In this document: in pieces, positions 29,142 to 39,556 of the stretch
Layout: every line of letters starts with the position of its first letter
Numbering within the stretch: position 1 is the first letter of the stretch
DNA from: Cloacibacterium normanense
Lineage (GTDB): Bacteria; Bacteroidota; Bacteroidia; Flavobacteriales; Weeksellaceae
DNA length: 64,000 bases
Assembly (NCBI RefSeq): GCF_002943105.1
Contig: NZ_PTPZ01000003.1
Span: 186,001-250,000 of the forward strand
Direction of reading: 5' to 3'
Notes under the pieces: generated by a model
Seen by the model: only the letters and a program-made list of their open reading frames with translations
Databases searched by the model: none
Told to the model about the DNA's origin: nothing
Made by a program: the position numbers and the translations under genes

Positions 29142-29211
29142 TTTTTGACAAAAATCACGTTTTCATTGTAACATCTGTTACCGAAATTGGTGAAAACCAA
29201 CCGTAAGTTTG
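29142..29211 (+). promoter_or_regulatory. Two-operator promoter of the persulfide reductase gene
   Basis: TTGAC-AAAA-ATCAC (29145-29158, FNR/HcpR-like), then TGTAAC-ATCT-GTTAC (29167-29181; perfect 6-bp arms GTAACA/TGTTAC), then 21 bases after 29182 the -7 box TAAGTTTG (29204-29211). No TTG box at the normal distance, so the palindrome probably replaces it as an activator site centred near -42. The same three blocks with identical spacing lie in front of the SQR operon (39432-39501). Confidence 0.65.
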
Positions 29212-29270: not shown

Positions 29271-30911
29271 ATGAAAATACTAATAGTAGGAGGAGTTGCA
29301 GGAGGCGCAACAGCAGCAACCAGATTGAGAAGACTCTCAGAAGAAAACGAAGTCATAATTTTTGAAAAAGGACAATATGTAAGTTTTGCGAATTGCGGTT
29401 TGCCTTATCATATCAGCGGAACGATTGACAAGAGAGACGCTCTTTTATTACAAACACCAGAATCTCTTAAAGAAAGATACAACTTAGATGTAAGAGTTTT
29501 TACAGAAGTTTTATCTATTTATACAGTCGATAAAAAAGTTTCAGTAAAAAATTTACAAACAGGCGAAATTTACTTAGAAAACTATGATAAACTCTTGCTT
29601 TCTCCAGGTGCAGAACCTATAAAACCTCCTTTTGAAGGAATTGATTCTGATAAAATTTATACACTCAGAAATATTCCTGATATGGATAAAATTGTGGCAA
29701 AAACCAAAAATGCGCAGAATTTTGTAGTTGTTGGCGGTGGTTTCATTGGTCTTGAAGTAGCAGAAAATCTCATTGAAGCAGGTAAGAATGTGAAGTTGGT
29801 AGAACTCGGTAACCAAGTAATGGCGCCTGTAGATTTTGATATTGCCAGTTTCGTTCACGAAAAAGCCAAACAAAAAGGGCTTGAATTGTTGTTAAACGTT
29901 GGCGTAGAAAAATTCAATGACAAAGGCGAAACCATAGAAGTATTCTTAAACAATGGAACTTCCGTAGAAACAGATGCTGTAATTCTCGCAATCGGTGTAA
30001 AACCCGAAACCAAATTAGCAATAGAAGCGGGTTTGGAAATTGGTGAAACTCGTGGAATTTTGGTGAACGAATTTATGCAAACCTCTAATCCTGATATTTA
30101 TGCAGTTGGAGACGCAATAGAAGTAGCGCATTACATCAACAATAAAAAAGTGTTGATTCCTTTAGCTTGGCCAGCAAACAGACAAGGTAGAATAGTAGCT
30201 GACAATATCGTTCTAGGAAATCAATACAAATATACAGGAAGTTTGGGTTCTTCTATTTTGAAATTTTTCGAACTTTCTGTGGCTTCAACTGGACTCAATG
30301 AAAAAACATTAAAACGTTTCGGAATTTCTTATAAAACGGCGATTGTAACAAGAGGTCATCACGCTGGTTATTATCCTGGTGCTAAAAATATAGTTCTAAA
30401 AGTTATTTTCGATGAAAATGGTAAAATTTTCGGAGCCCAAGCTGTTGGCGAAGCTGGAGTTGATAAAAGAATTGATGTAATTGCAACGGCTATCAAAGGA
30501 AATCTCGCTGTTTATGATTTACCAGAAATTGAAATTACTTATGCTCCGCCTTTTAACTCTGCGAAAGATCCTGTAAATATTGCTGGTTATGCTGCGGAAA
30601 ATATTTTGAAAGGGGATTTAGAAATGGTGAATTATGATGAATTTTGGGATTTTGTGAAAGAAAATGATGCAGTAATTTTAGATGTAAGAACTTCCAAAGA
30701 ATTTTCAGGAGGAGCAATTGAAGGAGCAATTAATATTAACGTAGATGATTTACGAGCAAATCTCGAAAAATTAGATAAGAATAAAATGTATGCCATTTAT
30801 TGCCAAGTTGGTTTGCGTGGTTATTTAGCCAATAGAATTATGAGAAATAACGGTTTTCGAGCCGTGAACTTAAACGGAGGGTACAATCTTTGGTCAAAAG
30901 TTCAATCATAG
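29271..30911 (+). CDS. CoA-disulfide/persulfide reductase with C-terminal rhodanese domain
   Basis: 546 residues. The FAD-binding Rossmann motif ILIVGGVAGGATAATRLRRL opens the protein; the redox cysteine is C42 in SFANCGLPYHISG; NAD(P)H motif VVVGGGFIGLEVAENLIEAG (about 152-171); then TSNPDIYAVGDAIEV and the dimerisation domain. A rhodanese domain occupies the last 100 residues (VILDVRTSKEFSGGAIEGAINI) with active cysteine C511 in YCQVGLRG. This is the CoADR-RHD architecture of NADH-dependent persulfide/polysulfide reductases, which reduce CoA- or glutathione-bound sulfane sulfur to sulfide. Own terminator downstream. Confidence 0.9.
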   Translation: MKILIVGGVAGGATAATRLRRLSEENEVIIFEKGQYVSFANCGLPYHISGTIDKRDALLLQTPESLKERYNLDVRVFTEVLSIYTVDKKVSVKNLQTGEIYLENYDKLLLSPGAEPIKPPFEGIDSDKIYTLRNIPDMDKIVAKTKNAQNFVVVGGGFIGLEVAENLIEAGKNVKLVELGNQVMAPVDFDIASFVHEKAKQKGLELLLNVGVEKFNDKGETIEVFLNNGTSVETDAVILAIGVKPETKLAIEAGLEIGETRGILVNEFMQTSNPDIYAVGDAIEVAHYINNKKVLIPLAWPANRQGRIVADNIVLGNQYKYTGSLGSSILKFFELSVASTGLNEKTLKRFGISYKTAIVTRGHHAGYYPGAKNIVLKVIFDENGKIFGAQAVGEAGVDKRIDVIATAIKGNLAVYDLPEIEITYAPPFNSAKDPVNIAGYAAENILKGDLEMVNYDEFWDFVKENDAVILDVRTSKEFSGGAIEGAININVDDLRANLEKLDKNKMYAIYCQVGLRGYLANRIMRNNGFRAVNLNGGYNLWSKVQS

Positions 30912-32782: not shown

Positions 32783-32795
32783 TCAATTGAAAAAA

Positions 32796-35700
32796 ATGAA
32801 AAATCAAAATAAAATAATAGCAACCATCGACGGCAACGAAGCTGCGGCTTACATCGCATACCGAGTAAACGAAGTTTGTGCCATTTATCCTATCACGCCA
32901 TCTTCTACTATGGCAGAATTGGCAGACGAATGGGCGTCTAAAGGAATTAAAAATATCTGGGGAAACGTTCCTGAAATTATAGAAATGCAAAGTGAAGGTG
33001 GAGCTGCTGGTACAGTTCACGGTTCGCTTCAAGCTGGTGCTTTAACAACAACTTTTACCGCATCTCAAGGGTTAATGTTGATGCTTCCAAATATGTACAA
33101 AATTGCAGGAGAACTTACGAGTGCCGTTTTTCACGTAGCGGCGCGTTCTTTGGCAGCACAAGCTTTGTCGATTTTTGGTGATCATCAAGATGTAATGGCA
33201 GCCAGAACTACTGGTTTTGCGATGCTTTCTTCTACAAGTGTTCAAGAAGCACACGATATGGCGCTCATTGCCCAAGCTACAACTTTGAGAGCGAGAATTC
33301 CTTTTATCCATTTCTTTGACGGTTTCAGAACTTCTCACGAAGTGAATAAAATTAATTTGTTGAATGACGACCAAATTCGTGGAATGATAGATGACGAATT
33401 GGTGATTGCACATAGAAACAGAAGTCTCAATCCTGATAAACCTTTCGTAAGAGGAACTGCTCAGAATCCTGATGTTTATTTCCAAGGAAGAGAAACTTCT
33501 AATCCTTATTATGCTAAAATTCCTACCATTTTAAAGGAAGAAATGCAGAAATTCTCTGAAATTTCAGGTAGAAATTATGCTCCAGTTTCGTATTTTGGGC
33601 GTCCTGAAGCAGAAAATGTTATCGTAATTATGGGTTCTGGAGTAGAAACAGTGATTCCAACTTCTGAGTTTCTCAATAAAAATGGAGAAAAAACAGGTGT
33701 TCTGAAAATCTCGTTGTTTAGACCATTCCCAAATGAAGATTTCATTTCGGTTTTACCAAAATCTGTGAAAAAAATCGCTGTTTTAGACAGAACCAAAGAA
33801 CCTGGAAGCAATGGTGAACCAATGTATCAAGACGTTTTGGTTTGCCTTACAGAAGCGCTTACGAATGGAACTTTAGATAAAATGCCTAAAATTATTGGTG
33901 GTAGATACGGACTTTCGTCTAAAGAATTTACACCAGCAATGGTAAAAGCGGTTTATGATAATTTAAAAACCGAAAATTCTAAAAACCATTTTACGGTAGG
34001 GATTACAGATGATGTAAGTTTTACCAGTATTAATGTAGATTACAACTTTAAATTAGATGATTCTGGATGGAATCAAGCACTATTTTTCGGTTTGGGAGCA
34101 GATGGAACCGTAGGCGCGAATAAAAATTCGATTAAAATTATTGGCGAAAACACAGAACTTTCAGCGCAAGGATATTTCGTTTATGATTCTAAAAAATCTG
34201 GAGCGAAAACTGTTTCTCACCTTCGTTTTGGGCACGAGCCGATTGAAGCGCCTTATTTGATTTCAAAAGCAGATTTTATCGCTTGTCATTTCTTCAAATT
34301 TTTAGAAAATGAAGATATGCTCAGTTTTGCTAAAAATGGAGCGAAATTTTTATTGAATTCACCTTATTCTAAAGACGAAGTTTGGGATAAATTGCCATAC
34401 CAAGTTCAGCAACAATTGATTGAAAAAAATATTAAATTTTTCGTGATAGATGCTAATGAAGTTGCCGAAAAAACAGGAATGAGAGGCAGAATTAATACCA
34501 TTATGCAAACGTGTTTCTTTGAACTTTCAGGGGTTTTGCCAGAAGAAGAAGCGATTAAGCAAATTAAAAAAGCGATTGAAAAAACTTACATCAAAAAAGG
34601 ACAAGCTATAGTTGATAAAAACTTTGAAGCTGTTGATCAAACCTTAGCCAATTTATTTGAAGTTAATATTCCAGATGCAGTAACCGCCGAAAAAGGAGAG
34701 GAGCAAACCATCGACGAAAATGCACCAGATTTTGTAAAAAATATCACTTACAAAATGATGATTGGGAAAGGTGATGATTTACCTGTAAGTGCTATTCCTG
34801 CTGATGGAACTTATCCAAACGGAACTACAAAATGGGAAAAACGTAATATTTCTGAAAAAGTAGCCCATTGGAATGCAGATATCTGCATACAGTGTGGTAA
34901 TTGTAGTTTTGTTTGTCCTCATTCTGTGATTCGTTCTAAATTTTATCACAAAGATTTATTGACGGAAGTTCCAGAAGGTTTCCAATCAGCACCAATTAAT
35001 GCAAGAGGTTTCCCTGAAACTAAATTCACGCTTCAGGTTTATGAAGAAGATTGTACTGGTTGTAAATTATGCTACGAAGCTTGTCCGGTTATCGATCAAG
35101 AAAATGAAGAATTACGTGCGATTAATATTTTACCAAAAAATCCAGACCTTAAAAAACATAGAAAAGTGATTTCTTATTTCGAGAAATTGCCAATTCACGA
35201 TAAAAATATGGTGAATTATTCCACTGTTCACGGCGTACAATTTTTAGAGCCAATGTTCGAGTTTTCTGGAGCTTGTGCAGGTTGTGGAGAAACACCTTAC
35301 ATCAAAGTTCTCACTCAACTTTTCGGTGATAGATTAATGGTAGCCAATGCGACGGGTTGTTCATCAATCTACGGAGGAAATTTACCAACTACACCTTGGA
35401 GTTCTAATTCTAAAGGAAAAGGACCAGCTTGGAGCAATTCTCTCTTCGAAGATAATGCCGAATTTGGTTTAGGAATGAGACTTTCTGCGGATAAGCAATT
35501 GCAAATGGCTCATTATTACGCCGAAAAATTAAAACCAGAGTTAGGCGAAGATTTCATCAATGAAATTATCCATGCACCTCAAAAATTAGAAAGTCAAATC
35601 ATCAAACAAAGAGAAAGAGTAGAAATTCTAAAAAATAGATTGCAATTTTCTGAAAATCCAGATGCGAAACATCTCTATTCTCTTGCAGATCATTTGGTTC

Positions 35701-36371
35701 ATCGTGCTGTTTGGCTTATTGGTGGTGATGGTTGGGCTTATGATATCGGAAGTGGAGGTTTAGATCACGCGCTTTCTACAGGTAGAAATATCAATGTTTT
35801 GGTTTTAGATACTGAGGTTTACAGTAATACAGGTGGACAAAGTTCTAAAGCTACGCCAACTGCTGCTTCTGCGAAATTTGCAACTGCAGGAAAACGTGTT
35901 GGCAAAAAAGATTTGGCAATGCAAGCTATTTCTTACGGAAATGTTTATGTAGCAACCGTTGCAATGGGCGCAAATCCTCAACAAACATTATTGGCGATGC
36001 GTGAAGCAGAAGCTTATGACGGACCTTCATTAATTCTAGCGTACAGTCATTGTATTGCACACGGAATTGATATGGAAAAAGGTTTGAACCAACAAAAAAT
36101 GGCTGTAGCAAGTGGTTATTGGCCATTGATTAGATTCAATCCTGTGTTGAGAAAAAACAATAAAAATCCTTTTATCTTAGATTCTATTCGTCCTACAATT
36201 CCGTTTGAGGAATATGCGTACAACGAATTGCGTTACCGAGTTCTAAAACAAACGCAACCGCAAGATGCAGAACATTTGATGCAATTAGCACAAGAAATTG
36301 TAGATTTAAGATGGAAAACGTACGAAGATATGGCTTCATTAGGAGCTGAAAACTTCCAACCAACTTTTTAA
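32796..36371 (+). CDS. nifJ: Pyruvate:ferredoxin (flavodoxin) oxidoreductase
   Basis: 1191 residues from ATG 32796 (MKNQNKIIATIDGNEAAAYIAYR). Full domain set: the pyrimidine-binding domain (CAIYPITPSSTMAELADEW), domain II, the gamma domain, a two-cluster ferredoxin insert (C697 CIQCGNCSFVCP; C753 CTGCKLCYEACP), CAGCGE near 827 for the third cluster, and the TPP motif GDGWAYDIGSGG near 977 with YSNTGGQ. It oxidises pyruvate with CoA to acetyl-CoA, CO2 and reduced ferredoxin. Cotranscribed with the GltD-like gene (13-base gap). Its presence supports anaerobic or microaerobic growth. Confidence 0.95.
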   Translation: MKNQNKIIATIDGNEAAAYIAYRVNEVCAIYPITPSSTMAELADEWASKGIKNIWGNVPEIIEMQSEGGAAGTVHGSLQAGALTTTFTASQGLMLMLPNMYKIAGELTSAVFHVAARSLAAQALSIFGDHQDVMAARTTGFAMLSSTSVQEAHDMALIAQATTLRARIPFIHFFDGFRTSHEVNKINLLNDDQIRGMIDDELVIAHRNRSLNPDKPFVRGTAQNPDVYFQGRETSNPYYAKIPTILKEEMQKFSEISGRNYAPVSYFGRPEAENVIVIMGSGVETVIPTSEFLNKNGEKTGVLKISLFRPFPNEDFISVLPKSVKKIAVLDRTKEPGSNGEPMYQDVLVCLTEALTNGTLDKMPKIIGGRYGLSSKEFTPAMVKAVYDNLKTENSKNHFTVGITDDVSFTSINVDYNFKLDDSGWNQALFFGLGADGTVGANKNSIKIIGENTELSAQGYFVYDSKKSGAKTVSHLRFGHEPIEAPYLISKADFIACHFFKFLENEDMLSFAKNGAKFLLNSPYSKDEVWDKLPYQVQQQLIEKNIKFFVIDANEVAEKTGMRGRINTIMQTCFFELSGVLPEEEAIKQIKKAIEKTYIKKGQAIVDKNFEAVDQTLANLFEVNIPDAVTAEKGEEQTIDENAPDFVKNITYKMMIGKGDDLPVSAIPADGTYPNGTTKWEKRNISEKVAHWNADICIQCGNCSFVCPHSVIRSKFYHKDLLTEVPEGFQSAPINARGFPETKFTLQVYEEDCTGCKLCYEACPVIDQENEELRAINILPKNPDLKKHRKVISYFEKLPIHDKNMVNYSTVHGVQFLEPMFEFSGACAGCGETPYIKVLTQLFGDRLMVANATGCSSIYGGNLPTTPWSSNSKGKGPAWSNSLFEDNAEFGLGMRLSADKQLQMAHYYAEKLKPELGEDFINEIIHAPQKLESQIIKQRERVEILKNRLQFSENPDAKHLYSLADHLVHRAVWLIGGDGWAYDIGSGGLDHALSTGRNINVLVLDTEVYSNTGGQSSKATPTAASAKFATAGKRVGKKDLAMQAISYGNVYVATVAMGANPQQTLLAMREAEAYDGPSLILAYSHCIAHGIDMEKGLNQQKMAVASGYWPLIRFNPVLRKNNKNPFILDSIRPTIPFEEYAYNELRYRVLKQTQPQDAEHLMQLAQEIVDLRWKTYEDMASLGAENFQPTF

Positions 36372-37749: not shown

Positions 37750-38058
37750 TTAAATACAAGATTTTGGTTTAGAAATTCCTGCTAATCTACTAGAGATTTT
37801 TAGTGGTCCTTTTGGGAACAATTCATAGAATTCTTTAATATCTACTACGCCAGATTTTCCTACGCCTCTTATGGTTAATGCTACATCTTTTTTCTGTTGG
37901 TCTCTTAAATATTCTAACACGTCGAAATGTCTGTTTCCTAGTTCTAAACCGTCTTCTTTAGCCATTTCTTTAGCTACTTCGTGATTCCATTGGTTCATGT
38001 CTGTAAGGTATCCCTCGTCGTTTACATTGATTGTAAAACCTGCATAAGTTTTTTCCAT
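37750..38058 (-). CDS. tusE: TusE/DsrC family sulfur-relay protein
   Basis: 102 residues, whole-length match to TusE/DsrC: INVNDEGYLTDMNQWNHEVAKEMAKEDGLEL, LEYLRDQQKKDVALTIRGVGKSG, and the C-terminal arm LAGISKPKSCI with the active cysteine (CysA) at the penultimate position, C101. DsrC proteins that work with the dissimilatory sulfite reductase have a second cysteine 11 residues earlier; here that place is a serine (S90). So it should be a sulfur carrier rather than a DsrAB redox partner. It lies between SQR and DsrE. Confidence 0.88.
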   Translation of the reverse strand: MEKTYAGFTINVNDEGYLTDMNQWNHEVAKEMAKEDGLELGNRHFDVLEYLRDQQKKDVALTIRGVGKSGVVDIKEFYELFPKGPLKISSRLAGISKPKSCI

Positions 38059-38139: not shown

Positions 38140-39387
38140 TTATACTGTTTCCTTGTCAAATTTCTTTCCTGCTCTGCTCATAGTAGGCGTTACGAAAGGT
38201 ATTTTTCTTGCTGGTAGAAGCATATTCCAATACACCCATTTAAAAGCCATTTTTCCGAAGTGGTTAAAAGCACTTTCTTCTAATAAATTTAGCGGACCGA
38301 TTCCAGCGAATGGGAATTTTCCTTTTAATGGTTCTACATCATAATTGAAGTCAATCAATAATGCTTTTCCTTTTCCTGTTTCTATGAAACAATTGGCGTG
38401 ACCGTCAAATTCTGGATTAAGTGGTTTTCCTTCTATATATTTTAGAATATTTTTAGTAAGAATTTCGGCTTCGAAATGTGCTACAGAACCAGCTTTTGAA
38501 GCAGGAACATTCGTAGCATCACCGATTACGAAAATATTTTCTTTTACTTTACTTTGTAAGGTATTTTTGTCCGTAGGAACGTAGTTTAAATCATCTCCAA
38601 AACCTGAACGAAGAATACATTCGTCTCCCATATTGGTAGGTATGGTTACTAATAAGTCAAAATCTACCACTTCGCCACCGTAATCGAACATTTTTCCGTT
38701 TTCTCCTTCTATATGTTCTACTGCGAAATCTGGAACAATTTTTATATTTTTTTCCTCTAATAAATAATTGAGCGTTTCAGTAGTTTTAGGCTTTGTAAAT
38801 GCGCCAGAAAGTGGAGTAACATAAGAAATTTCTACTTTGTCTCTCATTCCTTTTTTGGTGAAGTAATCATCTGCTAAAAAAGCAAATTCTAGCGGAGCAA
38901 CAGGACATTTTATTGGCATTTCGGTGATGTGAACCACTAATTTTCCTCCTGGCCAAGTTTCTAATTTTTTAGCCAATGCACAACTTCCCTCGAAAGTGTA
39001 GAAATCGAAAATATTTTTTTGCCAAGTGTCTCCTTTCATTCCCGGAACTTCTTCTGGAGCGATTTTACAACCTGTAGCAATGATGAGAATGTCATATTTT
39101 ACATTTCTTCCGTTTTCTAAAATAACGGTATCTGTATCTTTATCTATTCTGTCGATTTTTTCACGAATAAGTTGAATTCCTTTTGGTAAAAATTCATCAA
39201 TCGTTCTTTTTACATCTTCTGGTTGATAGGTTCCAAAAGGAATAAATAAAAATCCTGGCTGGTAGTAGTGAGACTTAAATTGGTCTACCAAAGTAATTTG
39301 CCAATCTTTTTTATTCAGTTTTTTTACTAGGTGATTCGCCATCATAGTTCCGGCGGTTCCTGCTCCTAAGATTACTAAGTTTTTCAT
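38140..39387 (-). CDS. sqr: Sulfide:quinone oxidoreductase-like FAD enzyme
   Basis: 415 residues. N-terminal FAD motif LVILGAGTAGTMMANHLVKKL, the SQR-typical YYQPGFLFIPFGTY, the second motif DILIIATGCKIAPEEVPGM and NIFVIGDATNVPASKAGSVAHFEAEIL near 284-310. Candidate redox cysteines are C136, C161 (IKCPVAPLEF) and C333 (ANCFIETG), a spacing like the three cysteines of SQR. It lacks an NAD-specific partner and ends in amphipathic helices that could bind the membrane. It should oxidise sulfide to sulfane sulfur and reduce menaquinone. First gene of the SQR-TusE-DsrE unit, with the shared two-operator promoter upstream. Confidence 0.85.
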   Translation of the reverse strand: MKNLVILGAGTAGTMMANHLVKKLNKKDWQITLVDQFKSHYYQPGFLFIPFGTYQPEDVKRTIDEFLPKGIQLIREKIDRIDKDTDTVILENGRNVKYDILIIATGCKIAPEEVPGMKGDTWQKNIFDFYTFEGSCALAKKLETWPGGKLVVHITEMPIKCPVAPLEFAFLADDYFTKKGMRDKVEISYVTPLSGAFTKPKTTETLNYLLEEKNIKIVPDFAVEHIEGENGKMFDYGGEVVDFDLLVTIPTNMGDECILRSGFGDDLNYVPTDKNTLQSKVKENIFVIGDATNVPASKAGSVAHFEAEILTKNILKYIEGKPLNPEFDGHANCFIETGKGKALLIDFNYDVEPLKGKFPFAGIGPLNLLEESAFNHFGKMAFKWVYWNMLLPARKIPFVTPTMSRAGKKFDKETV

Positions 39388-39431
39388 ATTTTCTAACTTT
39401 ATAAGAATGAGTAATTCTTAATTTTCTTGTA

Positions 39432-39501
39432 CAAAGTTACATCAGCGCTAAATGGACTTGTGTAACTTATATTACACAACCTCAATGACTTTTGTCATTA
39501 A
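39432..39501 (-). promoter_or_regulatory. Two-operator promoter of the SQR operon
   Basis: Read on the minus strand: the palindrome AATGACAAAAGTCATT (39499-39484), then TTGTGTAA-N6-TTACACAA (39479-39458, perfect 8-bp arms), then the -7 box TAACTTTG (39439-39432). The distance from the TGTAA...TTACA palindrome to the -7 box is 21 bases, and the two palindromes are 23 bases apart centre to centre, exactly as at 29142-29211. Confidence 0.7.
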
Positions 39502-39556
39502 AATCGAAATAAAATCCGTTATTTTTATTTGACTTAAATTTGTAAAAAATTAAAAA

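Follow-up and report, generated by a model that had tools for sequence, protein, structure and literature searches.

A CRP/FNR-type operator at constant spacing to the -7 box in promoters of sulfur genes of Cloacibacterium and other Bacteroidota, and its candidate regulator

Sulfide-oxidising and rhodanese genes occur in several genera of heterotrophic Bacteroidota, and no regulator for them was found among the literature matches listed. The 64,000 nucleotides of Cloacibacterium normanense DNA analyzed here (the window) contain two sulfur units, one headed by a sulfide:quinone reductase (SQR) gene and the other by a gene for a CoA-disulfide-reductase-like (CoADR) flavoprotein with a rhodanese domain. 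The likeness of their promoters raises the question of whether both units answer to the same regulator and, if so, to which protein and to which signal.

Common blocks in two sulfur promoters

A sequence-only reading of the window had aligned the SQR promoter (39501 to 39432, minus strand) with the CoADR-rhodanese promoter (29142 to 29211, plus strand) over 70 bases without a gap. Such an alignment exists and has 39/70 identical bases, divided into 23/25 at the fixed block positions and 16/45 at the others. The features of the two units are as follows:

39486..39497, minus strand: block 1 of the SQR promoter, TGACAAAAGTCA, an FNR-type palindrome read directly; predicted centre about -64.5
39461..39476, minus strand: block 2 of the SQR promoter, TGTAATATAAGTTACA, predicted operator; predicted centre -41.5
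39432..39439, minus strand: -7 box of the SQR promoter, TAACTTTG, 22 bases after GTTAC; consensus TAnnTTTG
38140..39387, minus strand: sulfide:quinone reductase (type III SQR), first gene of the unit; NF049943, 650 bits, cut-off 525
37750..38058, minus strand: DsrC/TusE-like sulfur carrier; PF04358, 85.9 bits
37125..37643, minus strand: DsrE2-like protein; PF13686, 111 bits; NF047629 below cut-off
29146..29157, plus strand: block 1 of the CoADR-rhodanese promoter, TGACAAAAATCA; pattern match and alignment
29167..29182, plus strand: block 2 of the CoADR-rhodanese promoter, TGTAACATCTGTTACC, predicted operator; predicted centre -41.5
29204..29211, plus strand: -7 box of the CoADR-rhodanese promoter, TAAGTTTG, 22 bases after GTTAC
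29271..30911, plus strand: CoADR-like flavoprotein with a C-terminal rhodanese domain, candidate persulfide reductase; PF07992, PF02852, PF00581
31148..32782, plus strand: GltD-type Fe-S flavoprotein; NF009410, 757 bits, cut-off 516
32787..36371, plus strand: pyruvate:ferredoxin oxidoreductase; PF01855, PF01558, PF10371, PF17147

The window SQR (38140-39387) exceeds the cut-off of a model in NCBIfam whose name refers to a selenoprotein subtype of SQR, although the SQR frame contains no in-frame stop. The CoADR models TIGR03385 and NF007123 match the CoADR-rhodanese protein below their cut-offs. Judging from gene order and strand, the GltD-type flavoprotein and the pyruvate:ferredoxin oxidoreductase probably belong to the CoADR operon.

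The blocks are real, after small corrections to their first description. Block positions 4-15, 25-39 and 62-69 were one too low and become 5-16, 26-40 and 63-70; the spacer of the inner palindrome is N4 (TGTAAY-N4-RTTAC) rather than N5; and the 21 bases reported between palindrome and -7 box hold when counted from the full 16-mer, while the count from GTTAC is 22. The palindromes are indeed 23 bp apart, centre to centre. The corrected common architecture thus reads TGAY-N4-RTCA, N9, TGTAAY-N4-RTTAC, N22, TAnnTTTG. With N5, the two-palindrome pattern has no match in the C. normanense genome; once corrected, it has exactly two in 2.84 Mb, the SQR and CoADR-rhodanese promoters, and it occurs in two places each in 4/6 genomes of the same genus.

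The claim that the promoters are not a recent duplication also stands. Only 16/45 of the bases outside the blocks are identical, and the blocks are kept in diverged genomes: in the two most diverged of the genus, G001 (C. rupense) and G005, 22-24/25 block positions are retained, against 16-23/45 outside. Recent promoter duplication is rejected on both counts. In these two genomes the counterpart of the SQR promoter precedes a different, SQR-like gene of 399 residues (in G001, region L068:4694-7521), and therefore the promoter has been kept while the gene behind it differs. In G001 a perfect palindrome, TGTAACTTTTGTTACA (L068:6242-6257), stands immediately 5' of the ATG of the SQR gene and lacks a -7 box at 22; this is possibly a repressor-type site.

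Fixed spacing and the genes downstream

In the C. normanense genome the palindrome alone shows no enrichment (62 matches, 62 in the control). What stands out is the palindrome combined with a -7 box at constant spacing. When a composite of both elements (TGTAAYN4RTTAC-N22-TANNTTTG, with up to one mismatch) was searched in 59 genomes, that of C. normanense included, 138 matches were found, compared with 16 in the control. The seven genomes of the genus contribute 58 of them (control, 0) and the remaining genomes 80 (control, 16), so that, by the control, roughly a fifth of the matches beyond the genus are to be expected anyway. C. normanense itself has five exact and three one-mismatch matches, and none in the control. 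At three mismatches the composite is barely enriched (110 vs 86 control) and too noisy to use. If the spacer is left free (TGTAACN4GTTAC-N{8,36}-TANNTTTG), 43/50 matches fall at 22, two at 21 and five are scattered, with a single control match.

Class II activators act from operators centred about -41.5. According to excerpts of a study in a flavobacterium (PMC9723704), the -7 box TAnnTTTG lies at -12 to -5, and because of this placement the palindrome is predicted to be centred at -41.5. With the almost invariant spacing of 22, the class II position proposed for the inner palindrome is borne out relative to the predicted start. The operator centre is that of other class II CRP/FNR-dependent promoters, although these have a -10 box where the Bacteroidetes -7 box TAnnTTTG stands here.

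Could the common blocks be due to chance, or be a relic of a duplicated promoter? The lack of enrichment of the palindrome alone would fit such an origin. The control counts rule out chance, and the spacing peak, the occurrence in other genera and the conservation of the blocks between diverged spacers in two further genomes speak against either origin, which we regard as hardly conceivable.

The composite sites of C. normanense precede the SQR gene, the CoADR-rhodanese gene, three rhodanese genes, yeiH, a TolC-HlyD operon and a MarR gene; a match with two mismatches lies before an MBL-rhodanese gene. One palindrome between yeiH and a gene for a lipoprotein-like rhodanese (L067:4990-5005) serves two divergent promoters with mirrored spacing, and in G002 the -7 boxes are at 22 on both sides. 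By eye, a TCTATC-like element, possibly a further site, was seen 5' of the operator at L168:7251, L197:3119, L206:2870, L208:3289 and L213:948.

Among 90 sites taken from the fetched loci, not from all 138 matches, 63 precede homologues of 11 of 12 seed proteins; this is a raw count, with no background rate for the gene classes, and it includes near-identical genomes and two sites without a downstream ORF. The C. normanense CoADR promoter is not among the 90. The targets are 19 rhodanese, 14 MBL-rhodanese, 12 TolC, 7 TauE/SafE, 3 YeiH, 6 SQR or SQR-like and 2 CoADR genes; without TolC, 51/90 sites precede homologues with functions in sulfur transfer, sulfide oxidation or sulfur transport. Target genes for the handling of sulfide and persulfide, as in a reactive-sulfur-responsive regulon, are thus present. 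The two promoters of the window are very likely members of a larger sulfur regulon in C. normanense and many of its relatives. The sites before the TolC-HlyD operon and the MarR gene count against this view. We take it to be a CRP/FNR-family regulon with new content; no description of such a regulon was found among the literature matches listed (open-licence papers). The TolC-HlyD operon with its operator at spacing 22 (for instance, L065:5323-5367), which accounts for the 12 TolC site-gene pairs and sometimes lies beside the regulator gene, suggests a link between a TolC-type operon and sulfur metabolism.

The candidate regulator and its operator letters

The sequence-only reading had proposed a CRP/FNR-family regulator common to both sulfur units and encoded outside the window. 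The genome has five HTH_Crp_2 matches, three of them above cut-off, and all five lie elsewhere. One of them provides a candidate: the gene at C12:124206-124820 stands in front of TauE/SafE, MBL-rhodanese, rhodanese and thioredoxin genes (the last identified by reading the sequence), and its product belongs to the CRP/FNR family, with PF00027 at 53.8 bits and PF13545 at 44.2 bits, both above cut-off. Its counterpart in C. rupense is 94% identical, and a structure model of this orthologue (pLDDT 77) matches CRP-family structures with a best E value of 3.7e-16. Close or distant relatives are found in 43/59 genomes (E 1e-12).

Sites and regulator genes tend to lie together. When C. normanense and its close relatives G002, G003, G004 and G006 were omitted, 33/95 listed sites, in 20/32 genomes, were found at most 10 kb from a regulator match at E 1e-12, where 0.94 were expected; these regulator matches include distant paralogues with 28-40% identity, and part of the proximity could reflect clustering of sulfur genes. 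In addition, 80 named loci around relatives of the regulator contain 20 sites in 18 loci, and none in the control; three of the 20, in L243 and L244, are the same DNA as in G005 and G001. These sites are distributed among Flavobacterium, Pedobacter, Paenimyroides, Cloacibacterium and metagenome-derived genomes, and the genes behind them are that of the regulator, TauE/SafE, MBL-rhodanese and a handful of others. No composite site at one mismatch or less was found in the fetched DNA of the remaining 62 loci, to which all those of Chryseobacterium and Sphingobacterium belong.

A relationship between the regulator and its operator was also found at the level of single residues. Excerpts of Rodionov et al. 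2005 (PMC1274295) report that residues 180 and 181 of CRP/FNR proteins correlate with operator letters, and that the GTAAC form of HcpR2 sites is tied to loss of Glu181. In our set, regulators with Val after the first Arg of the recognition helix (TARVVVSR or SSRVVISR-like) have TGTAA/TTACA in both halves at 52/56 sites, while those with Glu at that place (REATSR, REAVSR, REVVSR, REVISR) have at least one TGTGA/TCACA half at 17/21 sites. Fisher's P is 6e-10 by site and 8e-4 by genome with the genus Cloacibacterium counted once, both values being inflated by relatedness. Only sites that fully match the other pattern positions were counted, G049 and G041 were added by hand, and G017, which has one regulator of each type, was omitted. 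As an example of the TGTGA form, the SQR-like gene of G041 (helix REVISR) is preceded by TGTGATGAATGTCACG-N22-TAAATTTG. Exceptions exist: among Glu regulators, one TGTAA site in G048 and 3/7 sites in G035; among Val regulators, one TGTGA site in G030 and one, before a CoADR gene, in G027; and one mixed site each in G001 and G005. Operator letters vary together with a single residue of the recognition helix (Val or Glu), in agreement with the published rule. This provides a specificity rule, in which one residue would set operator preference, that can be tested by a single residue change. As far as sequence can tell, the C12 protein is likely the regulator at block 2 of both promoters. The analysis arrives at a specific protein as candidate regulator, an exactly spaced operator and a list of targets for several genera.

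Two known regulators have similar operators. NtcA, the cyanobacterial nitrogen regulator, has a GTA-N8-TAC operator and an Arg-Val helix start, and both features recur here; the NtcA model, however, matches the C. normanense regulator weakly (33 bits, cut-off 245), and the regulon of NtcA concerns nitrogen. The second is HcpR2, also of the CRP/FNR family. Its operator GTAACnnnnGTTAC (GTAAC-N4-GTTAC) is identical to block 2, and HcpR2 proteins, which have Pro at 181, target hcp and are predicted to respond to NO or nitrite (excerpts of PMC1274295). If the C12 protein were of this type, the sulfur genes would be part of a nitrosative-stress response. Besides the operator, a perfect palindrome inside the nos cluster, TGTAACAAAAGTTACA (L064:14492-14507), and the presence of Porphyromonas gingivalis HcpR (9day) among the fold matches would be in keeping with that interpretation. 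We consider it quite unlikely. The regulator has Val, not Pro, at 181, a difference on which HcpR2 identity was rejected; 9day is only 17% identical in the fold match and absent from the 38 sequence matches at E 0.001; and the nos palindrome lacks a -7 box at 22, whichever strand is read. The gene sets appear to differ as well, with hcp as target in one case and sulfur genes in the other. No hcp-like gene was noticed by eye among the first 100 residues of the products downstream of regulon sites, and the excerpts of PMC1274295 contain no such sulfur regulon.

The upstream FNR-type box and the probable signal

The sequence-only reading had taken the two palindromes as possible sites for two dimers of one regulator. 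Their spacing of 23 bp, about two helical turns, would allow two dimers on one face of the DNA, and both have CRP-like half-site geometry. Their half-sites differ, however, those of block 1 being of FNR type (TGAY/RTCA) and those of block 2 of NtcA/HcpR2 type (TGTAA/TTACA). When the block 1 box was scored as at least 7/8 letters of TGAYNNNNRTCA, it was found at gap 9 in 5/90 regulon sites only, all of them SQR, SQR-like or CoADR promoters (the C. normanense CoADR promoter has the box by definition). Over 44 other gaps there were seven matches in total, two of them in SQR promoters from a different genus, where the gap is 18 or 19. Moreover, the TGAY type forms class II promoters of its own at N23; addition by hand over 59 genomes gave 149 matches compared with 5 in the control, but the 149 include TGTGA-type sites that belong to the sulfur regulon. 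Some of the TGAY-type promoters lie directly downstream of a different CRP/FNR gene. Binding of a single regulator to both boxes is disfavoured by the restriction of block 1 to SQR, SQR-like and CoADR promoters, and we judge the two-dimer arrangement unlikely. Block 1 is probably a different, FNR-type box, read by a second CRP/FNR protein.

One candidate for such a protein emerged. A second CRP/FNR gene of C. normanense, on contig C13 near the nos cluster, encodes the helix RTETIIR, and a TGAY-N4-RTCA class II box lies after the RTETIIR-type gene and before the next gene in G005, G011 and C. normanense (L362, L233 and L064:6620-6680; in the last, the -7 box is one letter off). A TGAY-type class II box also follows the gene of an RTETIIR-type relative in G023. 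The position of these boxes suggests that they are the protein's own operators. Because the helix lacks Arg180 and has Glu181, the protein is expected at TTGA halves under the published rule (excerpts of PMC1274295). On account of that expectation and of the boxes after its gene, the RTETIIR-type protein is our first candidate for block 1, and it might be its reader.

Altogether, we propose with good confidence a model in which the C12 CRP/FNR-family activator would bind TGTAAY-N4-RTTACA centred at -41.5 and, in class II fashion, would activate transcription from the TAnnTTTG -7 box. It would switch on genes for the oxidation of sulfide, the carriage and removal of sulfane sulfur and the export of sulfur compounds. 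At the SQR and CoADR operons, another CRP/FNR protein bound to the FNR-type box at -64.5 would probably add a redox or nitrogen-oxide input. Computation supplied the operator with its constant spacing and gene set, the tendency of sites to lie near regulator genes, the covariation of helix and operator, and the confinement of block 1 to a few promoters.

The gene set points to reactive sulfur (persulfide, polysulfide or sulfide) as the probable signal. The only cysteine of the C. normanense regulator, at position 73 in the motif GESC, is invariant in 36/36 aligned regulators chosen from 80; a cysteine within GESC was found in 73/73 parsed regulators of the 80 and, by eye, a cysteine was seen at the same place in 30 regulators. 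The cysteine is single in the C. normanense protein and in 55/73 parsed relatives, while a more distant clade has three, the two others close by. In our reading of the alignment, Cys73 lies beside the start of the phosphate-binding cassette of CRP; the structure model is CRP-like but of low certainty at just this place (pLDDT 54-61). A conserved cysteine at the edge of the effector pocket suggests sensing of reactive sulfur, in which this residue may take part. BigR uses a dithiol pair (excerpts of PMC7315123), and the presence of one cysteine in the C. normanense regulator counts against the sulfur-sensing model.

Another possibility is that the signal is low oxygen or the general redox state, and that the sulfur genes are merely induced under anaerobic conditions. 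The continuation of the CoADR operon into pyruvate:ferredoxin oxidoreductase would agree with such a signal, as would one site before a gene that reads, by eye, like a bd oxidase subunit, and the two further cysteines of the more distant regulator clade. FNR, however, senses oxygen through a 4Fe-4S cluster, for which the single cysteine of the C. normanense regulator is too few, and the 51/90 sites before sulfur-transfer, sulfide-oxidation or sulfur-transport homologues also argue against an oxygen or redox signal, which we thus view as rather unlikely. Our proposal in its full form is tentative: in Cloacibacterium and numerous further Bacteroidota, a lone-cysteine CRP/FNR protein may both sense reactive sulfur and act as a class II activator, with a switch between TGTGA and TGTAA by one helix residue while the regulon is kept, and with a second CRP/FNR protein 23 bp upstream at sulfide-oxidation operons.

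Persulfide-responsive regulons are also known to include SQR, rhodanese and TauE-type targets. Those of CstR, SqrR/BigR and FisR contain persulfide dioxygenase and YeeE/YedE genes as well (excerpts of PMC7315123). Gene content is alike, especially for FisR and BigR, but the protein families differ, and the regulon described here combines a CRP/FNR-family protein with class II promoters.
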